A program made the position numbers and the translations under genes. DNA of 35,667 bases from an uncultured Verrucomicrobia subdivision 3 bacterium (GTDB lineage: Bacteria; Verrucomicrobiota; Verrucomicrobiia; Limisphaerales; UBA11358). The number at the start of each line of letters is the position of its first letter. Within the stretch, counting starts at the first letter, position 1. Shown here piece after piece: positions 34,300 to 35,667 of this stretch. The stretch covers positions 1 through 35,667 of the forward strand of contig CAIXBQ010000159.1 in NCBI GenBank assembly GCA_903917705.1. Direction: 5' to 3'. The notes under the pieces are model-generated. The model ran no database searches. It saw only the letters and a program-made list of their open reading frames with translations, and was not told where the DNA came from.

Positions 34300-34413
34300 T
34301 TGTCGCAAAGTTACAAGCCAACCGCCGCCGCAATCAACCAATCTTTCAGCGGACGCCGCCGGATGATCGCCGGCCCACGCGGCTGGGGCGGGCGACGCAG
34401 CGAATTGTTTACT

Positions 34414-34490
34414 GGTAGGGCGGGCAGTCCCCTGCCCGCCGAACGCGCGGTCTGACCAGCGCCGGCGCGCACGGAGTGACGCGCCCTACC
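34414..34490. repeat. GTAG-type REP pair E
   Basis: GGTAGGG starts at 34414, followed by a 9-bp hairpin, GGCGGGCAG-TCCC-CTGCCCGCC, and a right end GCGCGCACGGAGTGACGCGC hairpin before CCCTACC at 34484-34490. It lies in the 213-bp gap between the fucosidase start and the small gene at 34513, so the gap 34300-34512 is largely this element. Confidence 0.7.
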
Positions 34491-34512
34491 AATGGTTCAC
34501 GGGGTCCGCCCC

Positions 34513-34878
34513 TCACGAAGCGGGCGCCGCTTTTTTCGGCTTGTTGGTCTTGCCGGATTTGCGCTCGCTCAGGCGGACGTAACCCATCGCCTCATACAGC
34601 TCGCCGTCTTCGCCCTCGGCCGGATCGCCCTTCACGGCGTTGACCAGGAACCGCAGCTCCTTCAAGGACGCCGCGTCGGCGCTCTTGCGCTGGTCCACGG
34701 CGGCGATGAGCTGGTTCTTCAGCGTGAGGATGGCCGCGCGCGCGTCGAGGCTGGGCTTGATGGCCGCCTTGAACTCGGCGAGCGTCTTGCCCGCGAAGCT
34801 CTTGTTCTTGCGCAGGTCGTCCCAGGCTTTTATTGCGGCGGCGATTTTCTCGCCGGTTTCTTTGACTCTTGTTGCCAT
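34513..34878 (-). CDS. Small lysine-rich unrecognised protein
   Basis: A 121-aa protein that starts MATRVKETGEKIAAAIKAW, is probably all-helical, and ends in a basic tail, KSGKTNKPKKAAPAS. A segment reads GELYEAMGYVRLSERKSG. I do not recognise the family. It has the best Shine-Dalgarno sequence in the window, AAAGGGGGTGA at 34895-34885, 6 nt from the ATG. That sequence also holds the stop codon of the upstream heptad-repeat frame, so the two could be translationally coupled. The tail could bind nucleic acid, but that is a guess. Confidence 0.65.
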   Translation of the reverse strand: MATRVKETGEKIAAAIKAWDDLRKNKSFAGKTLAEFKAAIKPSLDARAAILTLKNQLIAAVDQRKSADAASLKELRFLVNAVKGDPAEGEDGELYEAMGYVRLSERKSGKTNKPKKAAPAS

Positions 34879-34884
34879 GCTTTG

Positions 34885-35349
34885 TCACCCCCTTTCATTG
34901 AATTCCATTTTCAAAAGTGAGGAATCGGCCGGCTGCAACCCGGCGGGCGGGCGGCGCGGCGGCGACGCCAACCCGGCTGACCAGCAGGTCAGCCCTACCG
35001 GAGCGGCCTCCGTTCCAATTGAATTGGCCTCGGTTCCAATCGGGGTGGCAACGAAAGGCGCCAGGAAGGCGTCGTGGCCAGTCGAAATGGCGTCATGGCC
35101 AGTAAGAATGGCGTCGTTTTCTGCGAAAGAGGCGTGCGGATGCGCAAATCCGGAGCTTGGATGCGCGCATCCGGATGATGGATGTGCCAATCCAAAGCAT
35201 GGATGCACGAATCCATGGCTTGGATTTATCAATCCACAGGCCGGATGCGTAAATCCAGAGTCCGGATTCGTCAATCCAAAGCGTGGATTTGCCAATCCAA
35301 AGGCCATTTTTGTGAAAACCCGCGCCTCTTTTGCCGGAATCGAAGCCAT
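34885..35349 (-). CDS. Possible heptapeptide-repeat protein
   Basis: A frame of 154 aa from ATG 35349 (or 203 aa from GTG 35496). Starting MASIPAK, it reads as consecutive heptads such as PRFGLTN, PDSGFTH, PACGLIN, PSHGFVH, PCFGLAH, PSSGCAH, PSSGFAH, NDAILTG, HDAISTG, TEANSIG and TEAAPVG. The consensus is a Gly followed by a hydrophobic residue and then Asn/His-Pro. After the repeats the frame runs through a REP element (34975-34999) to a stop, where the next gene's ribosome-binding site begins. The opposite strand is equally open, with other heptads (CANPELG-like), because the DNA units are partly palindromic and lack stops. Being open is therefore weak evidence of coding. I do not recognise a family. 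Confidence 0.35.
   Translation of the reverse strand: MASIPAKEARVFTKMAFGLANPRFGLTNPDSGFTHPACGLINPSHGFVHPCFGLAHPSSGCAHPSSGFAHPHASFAENDAILTGHDAISTGHDAFLAPFVATPIGTEANSIGTEAAPVGLTCWSAGLASPPRRPPAGLQPADSSLLKMEFNERG
34975..34999 (-). repeat. GTAG-type REP F
   Basis: On the minus strand GGTAGG from 34999 followed by the hairpin GGCTGACC-TGCT-GGTCAGCC (8-bp perfect stem). It shares the TGCT loop with the copies at 115 and 14603. Degenerate GC-rich arms continue to about 34935. It lies 9 bp from the start of the 21-bp array. Confidence 0.7.
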
Positions 35350-35386
35350 TTCCGCCCGTCGCGAAGCCAAATCTGCAAGAGCGAGA
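35009..35386. repeat. Array of eighteen 21-bp units
   Basis: Eighteen units of exactly 21 bp run without a gap from 35009 to 35386. Seven of the eight consecutive units whose GGAT begins at 35138, 35159, 35180, 35201, 35222, 35243, 35264 and 35285 read GGAT-N6-ATCC with a conserved GGA(T)..AATCC core; in several the dyad extends to GGATT-N4-AATCC. The outer units are diverged but keep the phase and share TCG/GCC ends. The period equals two turns of B-DNA and seven codons. It can be a heptad-coding repeat, an iteron-like set of protein-binding sites, or both. It is not a CRISPR, as there are no spacers. Confidence 0.85.
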
Positions 35387-35539
35387 GGGTTTTGTGAAGA
35401 ATTGACCGCCCCGCCCGGCCAAAACCGCCACTGGGCGGCAAAATATCGGTCCAGTCGTTCGCAACTGGATTCAACCTCTGGAAAGAAGGTAGTCACGGTG
35501 GGGATTCAACCACTCTGGCCGGTCGCGCTCAAGGCAATA

Positions 35540-35570
35540 TTATACCAACTACGCAAATAGTCTGGTATAA
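35540..35570. promoter_or_regulatory. Inverted repeat TTATACCA...TGGTATAA
   Basis: TTATACCAACTA (35540-35551) and TAGTCTGGTATAA (35558-35570) pair with a one-base bulge. The sequence is AT-rich in GC-rich DNA and lies 28 bp before a new start codon. It may be an operator, or the terminal region of an insertion sequence. Confidence 0.4.
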
Positions 35571-35597
35571 GTTGAGATATGCAGTTAGCGTTGGCGG

Positions 35598-35667
35598 ATG
35601 GCAAGACCCCGAGCAAAACTTGATCGTAGCGGCGAGGCTGACTTGGTCATTCGCCGCCTCCAAACGG
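35598..35667 (+). CDS. Partial gene at window end, possibly an IS630-type transposase
   Basis: ATG 35598 opens a frame, MARPRAKLDRSGEADLVIRRLQ, that runs off the window after 23 codons. The basic start followed by an acidic/leucine helix resembles the N-terminal helix-turn-helix region of IS630-family transposases, and the TA-containing inverted repeat just upstream would fit an element end. With so few residues the identity is a guess. Confidence 0.3.
   Translation, partial: MARPRAKLDRSGEADLVIRRLQT

Follow-up and report, generated by a model that had tools for sequence, protein, structure and literature searches.

A 21-bp array of locus-specific dyads adjoins a small-protein gene in Verrucomicrobiota and Acidobacteriota

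The Locus

The DNA described here, called the window below, is a stretch of 35,667 nucleotides from an uncultured Verrucomicrobia subdivision 3 bacterium (GenBank assembly GCA_903917705.1, contig CAIXBQ010000159.1, positions 1 to 35,667), which carries towards its end an array of eighteen 21-bp units (35009..35386). A gene for a mostly helical protein of 121 amino acids (34513..34878, minus strand), recognised as an open reading frame (ORF) with homologues, reads away from this array, which begins 130 bp upstream of it, across a gap at 34879..35008. An earlier, sequence-only reading had picked out the array and missed the gene, which lies outside the coordinates it gave. Gene and array together are a recurrent locus in two bacterial phyla.

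The eighteen units hold an unbroken phase. Over 35009-35386 the identity at lag 21 is 0.597, against 0.250±0.025 (maximum 0.342) in 2000 dinucleotide-preserving shuffles, and among lags 1-69 only 21, 42 and 63 rise above 0.33, so the array is real. The borders first given to it are about right as well, since lag-21 identity falls off outside them: it is 0.36 at 34904-35008, 0.55 at 35009-35134, 0.65 at 35135-35302, 0.50 at 35303-35386 and 0.31 at 35387-35470. Degenerate edges flank both sides of a dyad-bearing core (35135-35302), all eight units of which carry GGAT-N6-ATCC (35138..35298, with starts at 35138, 35159 and so on to 35285); the sequence-only reading had seen these dyads and counted seven of eight. 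The window holds no further copy of the motif. Its half-sites stand alternately 10 and 11 bp apart, which amounts to roughly one half-site for each helical turn, with the orientation alternating (p=0.002 for the dyad under permutation of column order; p=0.005 for the half-site pair at d=10/11). Two phased dyads with at most two mismatches recur at a single further site, with 2 mismatches, in the 3.76-Mb assembly, which is 66% complete. Tandem Repeats Finder splits the array into four period-21 rows, as expected of units that have drifted.

The partner gene is preceded by a strong ribosome-binding-site-like AAAGGGGGTGA (34885..34895, minus strand) ahead of its ATG at 34878, and several homologues carry AGGAGGTGA at this position. 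The family consensus comprises a central FGGMTLxQF, a C-terminal GDPxxGxxSxLYxAMGYVRKSxRxSGLTRK and a basic tail, from which the window copy deviates at places. An AlphaFold2 model of the protein (mean pLDDT 85.7, pTM 0.55) predicts helices at residues 2-22 and 33-84. No confident match was found for 17 family members, whose best E values were 0.013 in Pfam, 0.016 in NCBIfam and 0.0097 in PHROGs (one member each, with unrelated names), with none in PADLOC; the window protein itself had nothing under E 0.15 in these four libraries, and searches by structure and by fold were likewise without result, no solved or viral fold being matched at E<=0.001. Across the 17 members, these libraries and the fold search gave no identity as a Rep, ParB, ribbon-helix-helix (RHH) or helix-turn-helix protein. 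The family thus appears as an undescribed one in the libraries searched. In a subgroup of the family (L016, L026, L045 and L047), a similar and short leader hairpin (CTCCGGA..TCCGGAG-like) can be seen by eye directly before the ribosome-binding site. Just 3′ of the gene in the window, at 34410-34498, lies a dispersed element resembling a miniature inverted-repeat transposable element, with ends TGGTAGGGC...GCGCCCTACCA and 38 matching places in its own genome including itself, many of them partial.

Occurrence of the Family and Linkage of Array and Gene

Homologues of the partner protein were found at 30 places in 16 of 59 genomes, made up of its own and relatives. A profile search of the order gave matches in 54/293 genomes, and one of a phylum sample, mostly from other orders, in 6/387, its own genome included. 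In the class to which an Acidobacteriota genome (G687) belongs, 28 of 162 genomes had matches, one of these genomes having 12, partly weak or with internal stops. The family spans Verrucomicrobiota and Acidobacteriota with 1-12 matches per positive genome, and seven genomes reached through a set of 18 named loci have 2-6 each. The records behind that set are metagenome-assembled genomes (MAGs) of Verrucomicrobia (subdivision 3 and unclassified), Verrucomicrobiales, Luteolibacter and one labelled Akkermansia, together with MAGs of Acidobacteria gp4 / Pyrinomonadaceae. One copy (L108) sits on the single 4.15-Mb contig of its genome (G423), and the remaining copies on draft contigs. With one family protein (that of L018) as query, no match was found among 72,556 records of plasmids or 50,697 of phages, and a search of IMG/VR with a family alignment (A2) yielded no confirmed locus. 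Four genomes (G745, G757, G790 and G823) have several family matches each, part of which contain an internal stop codon or two, and this suggests a birth and decay of copies.

The array accompanies the gene on its upstream side. In a first set of 74 distinct homologues, 67 had at least 400 bp upstream, and the best lag, sought between 13 and 60, was 21 or 42 in 55 of these 67 (21 in 28 loci, 42 in 27), as compared with 5/67 downstream of the gene. A second statistic combined each lag from 13 to 30 with its double and counted a lead of >0.03 as a margin; lag 21 came out on top in 73/91 upstream regions, and the margin was reached in 64 of these (L112, one of the 91 regions, is a duplicate of L095). 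The same was seen in held-out loci from Acidobacteriota that had no role in setting the criteria, where 44 loci were reduced to 32 by dropping duplicates, fragments and those with <400 bp upstream: lag 21 was top in 28, in 24 with margin. The 18 named loci were viewed with as much as 8 kb of flank: an array adjoins the gene upstream in 13 and none is found in 5, two of which have <250 bp upstream; one locus shows a second, weak hit. The sequence-only reading had held that the period is kept while the sequence drifts and had proposed to look for phase in homologous loci, and most of these loci do keep the 21-bp phase.

Larger stretches were scanned in two genomes. In 800 kb sampled from G423, the sole array scoring at least 0.6 adjoins the family gene, and four weaker arrays (0.53-0.56) fall within one 4-kb stretch. 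These lie at about 7375-11277 of L175 and are short, G+A-rich, roughly 7-bp repeats (GGACGGA / GGAGGGC type). G001, a genome of the same genus, gave no family member in the search, and 307 kb of it contain one hit only, a coding coiled-coil heptad. It belongs (3704-4225 of L198) to what is by eye a LuxR-type regulator, whose N-terminal part is a coiled coil built from heptads (RTEQAET) that repeat almost perfectly. Since this control genome holds a true coding heptad, lag 21 alone is not diagnostic.

No neighbour gene is widely common among 74 loci, most of which were seen with 1.5 kb of flank (1.5-8 kb overall). Near orthologues, such as L019/L045, L036/L054 and L062/L063, have downstream ORFs in common, and a few other pairs of loci have single, mostly distant ones. 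Ten neighbours picked by hand at seven loci matched acyltransferase, O-antigen ligase, VIT, NB-ARC/TPR, beta-propeller, radical SAM, ResIII, GT9, GT2 and MBOAT families, among which no pattern is claimed. The units being contiguous, of period 21 and drifting, and the neighbourhood having no widely conserved gene, the array is not a CRISPR array, as had been said of it from the start.

Coding Potential, RNA and Promoters

Heptads that do code, such as those of the LuxR-type protein, also produce a 21-bp lag and raise the question of whether the arrays are coding repeats, with 21 bp standing for seven codons of a heptad protein. In the window, ORFs pass through the array on both strands, and at least one frame is open in 36/48 arrays. 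Against this, stops close all six frames in 12/48 arrays and in 13/24 held-out ones, the open frames vary in strand and frame among loci, and neither of the two ORFs in the window has a protein family match. Moreover, the eight dyad bases are invariant in the window, including, in 8/8 units, the four-fold degenerate third position of a Gly codon; invariance here goes with the dyad and not with codon position. A coding repeat is refuted as a general explanation and retains hardly any probability for us; of the readings that had been offered, the iteron-like binding array is the better one.

An array placed directly 5′ of a small gene, with a stem of 4-7 bp possible by reading in many of its units, could also act as RNA, in the form of 21-nt hairpins in tandem to which the small basic protein encoded alongside would bind, either like a type III toxin-antitoxin system or as a scaffold RNA. 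In this regard, a first test of covariation between the arms was positive (mean z 0.91, 36/48 arrays), but the signal was gone when only core units were used (mean z -0.08, 26/60 arrays positive), and is therefore an artefact of core units mixed with degenerate edge units; we rejected it as evidence for hairpins. The mismatches speak less uniformly. At the three best-paired stem positions, G-T outnumbers A-C by 178 to 131, which would fit RNA; overall the two are near balance: 126 against 104 in a first count (162 and 155 expected), and 429 against 394 over seven stem positions, with no clear strand. The unpaired ends lean alike to G-T (222 against 190 A-C). Rfam gave no match at its gathering score for 34300-35667. 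Finally, a sigma-70-like promoter (z>2 against shuffles) lies between array and gene in 11/64 loci, as compared with 0 upstream and 3 inside the array, examples being TTGACA-N16-TATAAT (L059) and TTGACA-N17-TATGAT (L083). Altogether, these results speak more for double-stranded DNA, as an element lying upstream of the promoter, than for an array of RNA hairpins, which we consider unlikely.

Conserved Form and Changing Sequence

Despite the common period, the motifs are specific to each locus: ACTTAA-N3-TTAAGT (L018), GTTG-N8-CAAC (L026), TTGAGTA-N4-TACTCAA (L130), TTTCAATCGCGATTGAAA (L132) and TTGTAGCGCGCTACAA (L120, the same locus as L099). Even five paralogues of one genome (L093, L099, L132, L138 and L140) carry differing dyads. 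What the arrays share is the arrangement. When the order of columns was permuted in the 60 of 64 arrays that had the required six core units, the conserved columns proved to be arranged as a dyad at p<0.05 in 41/60 (Fisher 7e-44), and in 16/23 held-out arrays (Fisher 5e-18). Successive dyads are 21.0 bp apart in 550 of 640 steps and 20-22 bp in the others, in a path search restricted to 20-22 and favouring 21. A significant 4-bp half-site pair was present in 35 arrays, and in 19 of them the half-sites lie 9/12 or 10/11 bp apart (permutations, 26%). The feature of two alternating unit types, with lag 42 above lag 21, is clear in L123 and weak overall (mean index 0.015, 34/51 positive). Upstream of the gene in L218, two palindromes, GGTTGAAA/TTTCAACC and TCCTTAA/TTAAGGA, seem by eye to alternate with a period of 42.

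The similarity between arrays follows that between the proteins. In 1769 pairs it stays at background (0.28-0.32) below 50% protein identity and reaches 0.40 at 50-60% (49 pairs), 0.56 at 60-80% (26 pairs) and 0.90 above 80% (one pair); the array is thus passed on together with its gene, and drifts. An avoidance of similar arrays inside one genome was not seen, pairs within a genome being equally or slightly more similar than pairs between genomes.

Such fast turnover of sequence is also what a functionless satellite might display, one that expanded by slippage near the gene, was kept by repeated duplication and acquired its palindromes through snap-back replication errors. Nearly perfect, recent expansions in L102, L083 and L053, together with the internal stop codons in some gene copies, go in the same direction. 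However, a neutral satellite is not expected to lose its sequence and yet keep its period, nor does it account for a tie to one gene family across two phyla, nearly always upstream. Furthermore, column conservation is uneven (z>2 in 25/60 arrays), and similarity between units decays little with distance, from 0.56 at one unit (51 arrays) to 0.50 at eight (the 32 that are long enough). We regard a satellite of this kind as very unlikely.

The palindromic, operator-like sites upstream of a promoter are likewise compatible with operators for an unlinked host regulator, different locus by locus, the small gene being its regulated cargo. The unlike dyads among the five paralogues of one genome would agree with this, as would the decoupling of protein and array that occurs in places at 73% identity. 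Ten to twenty sites per gene are, on the other hand, far above what is normal for operators, no widely common neighbour gene appeared in the 1.5-8 kb flanks, and a single architecture would require a separate regulator for each locus, which makes this explanation decidedly unlikely.

A Model for the Locus

We infer that the array is a helically phased series of dyads that serve as candidate protein-binding sites and would act jointly with the small helical protein encoded next to them, similar in form to iterons or centromeres; to this reading we would give nearly an even chance. The element would be a ladder of dyad-symmetric half-sites in double-stranded DNA, repeated every 21 bp so that the dyads come to lie on one side of the helix, and in about one in two of the arrays that could be measured the half-sites follow each other roughly once per helical turn in alternating orientation. 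A half-site ladder repeating every two turns calls for a protein that would bind as a dimer, cooperatively and on one face. The obvious candidate for the binder is the adjacent gene, because no other widely conserved gene is nearby (in flanks mostly of 1.5 kb). Array and gene may then act as one functional unit, the array standing upstream of the promoter where a promoter can be recognised. In the most economical version, the gene product, a predicted long-helix protein with a basic tail, would coat its own array, leading to autoregulation and to a locus-specific nucleoprotein filament.

Several observations weigh against this model. The best upstream lag is not 21 (or 42) in 12/67, 18/91 and 4/32 family genes of the three sets, for instance in L020, L027, L073, L077 and L084, and strong arrays also lie downstream of the gene in L047 (0.79, one of the five downstream cases of the first set, in addition to one upstream) and L127 (about 1977-2180). 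Dyad symmetry at p<0.05 is missed in 19/60 arrays and in 7/23 held-out ones, where a half-site distance of 9-10 was moreover found in only 5/12. No promoter was recognised in the gap of the window, and the G-T excess at the best-paired positions would fit RNA, although the unpaired ends show the same lean. The weak points are two: the partner protein has no DNA-binding fold recognisable in Pfam and fold searches, and the arrays can switch abruptly, proteins 73-74% identical being accompanied by unrelated arrays (L095/L119 and L010/L012), which is awkward if the protein reads the sequence. Concerning the latter, residues 6-15, in the N-terminal helix, differ by 0.51 in nine pairs with switched arrays and by 0.17 in nine pairs with similar ones; these pairs lack independence, and the comparison covered twelve blocks, so we take as a lead only the hint that the N-terminal helix may change when the array changes.

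A wider version of the model would be a new two-part system found across phyla, in which a helical protein is coupled to a cis array that inherits nothing but its form (the 21-bp period and the dyad), with letters turning over locus by locus, a protein filament taking two helical turns per subunit and each array change being met by a change in the N-terminal helix. This broader proposal seems to us possible but rather doubtful. Protein-binding arrays usually keep their sequence, an expectation broken here by arrays that change their letters, at a recurrent locus present in two phyla, whose gene family can reach twelve matches in a single genome. If the protein does bind its array, the locus would stand for a phased nucleoprotein element of a new class, with many diverged pairs of protein and site naturally at hand; if it does not, another agent would have to maintain a 21-bp ruler without maintaining the letters.

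Comparison with Known Systems

The earlier statement that no described family matches agrees with the libraries and the open-access literature searched: no description of such arrays was found in open-access PMC articles. As a whole, the interpretation given by the sequence-only reading is partly supported. Since the comparisons that follow assign the locus to none of the known systems, and the protein family is undescribed in the libraries searched, we regard the system as new.

In type III toxin-antitoxin systems, tandem repeats lie directly 5′ of a small gene, as they do here, and these repeats are near-identical and form longer RNA units. The present arrays differ in their strongly drifting 21-bp units, in the evidence for DNA and in a protein without confident family match; no ToxN-like gene appeared in general scans (Pfam, best E 0.013, 17 members; fold search), which included no comparison aimed at ToxN. 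The iterons of plasmid replication resemble the present arrays as phased direct repeats adjoining a gene: they measure about 17-22 bp, follow each other at two helical turns and lie next to the gene for the protein that binds them. Here, no Rep-like match was found, several copies occur per genome and the L018 query had no match in the plasmid collection.

Short palindromes are also known from the REP/GTAG and CGTC types, which occur in many prokaryotes including Verrucomicrobia. They are repetitive, extragenic and of high copy number, the GTAG types being tied to transposases (PMC3733652), in contrast with the tandem, phased units of the present loci, one array to a gene. A further likeness is offered by plasmid R388, whose StbA protein binds the stbDRs, an array around its own promoter region made of 9-bp repeats with 2-nt spacers (11 bp, about one helical turn), so that a small protein gene again has a repeat array near its promoter region (PMC3098194). 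The present arrays have dyads every 21 bp, of locus-specific sequence, and no conserved operon was found around them. Equally, parS of pSM19035 consists of contiguous arrays of short sites, with 7-10 copies of a 7-bp repeat overlapping the promoter regions of partition genes, and is bound by Omega, an RHH ParB; it has a fixed non-palindromic consensus, an RHH protein and a ParA partner (PMC9499535). Our loci show no common consensus and no RHH match, and there is no ParA among the ten identified neighbour proteins.

As in iterons and ParB-parS systems, tandem and helically phased sites adjoin a gene in the loci described here. The array is not filed under stbDRs, Omega heptads or iterons because the proteins that define them and a fixed consensus are absent here; if the adjacent protein were shown to bind, the array would join the known kind of protein-binding repeat arrays. 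By analogy, stbDRs with StbA, Omega heptads and iterons can show how a unit of this sort may work.
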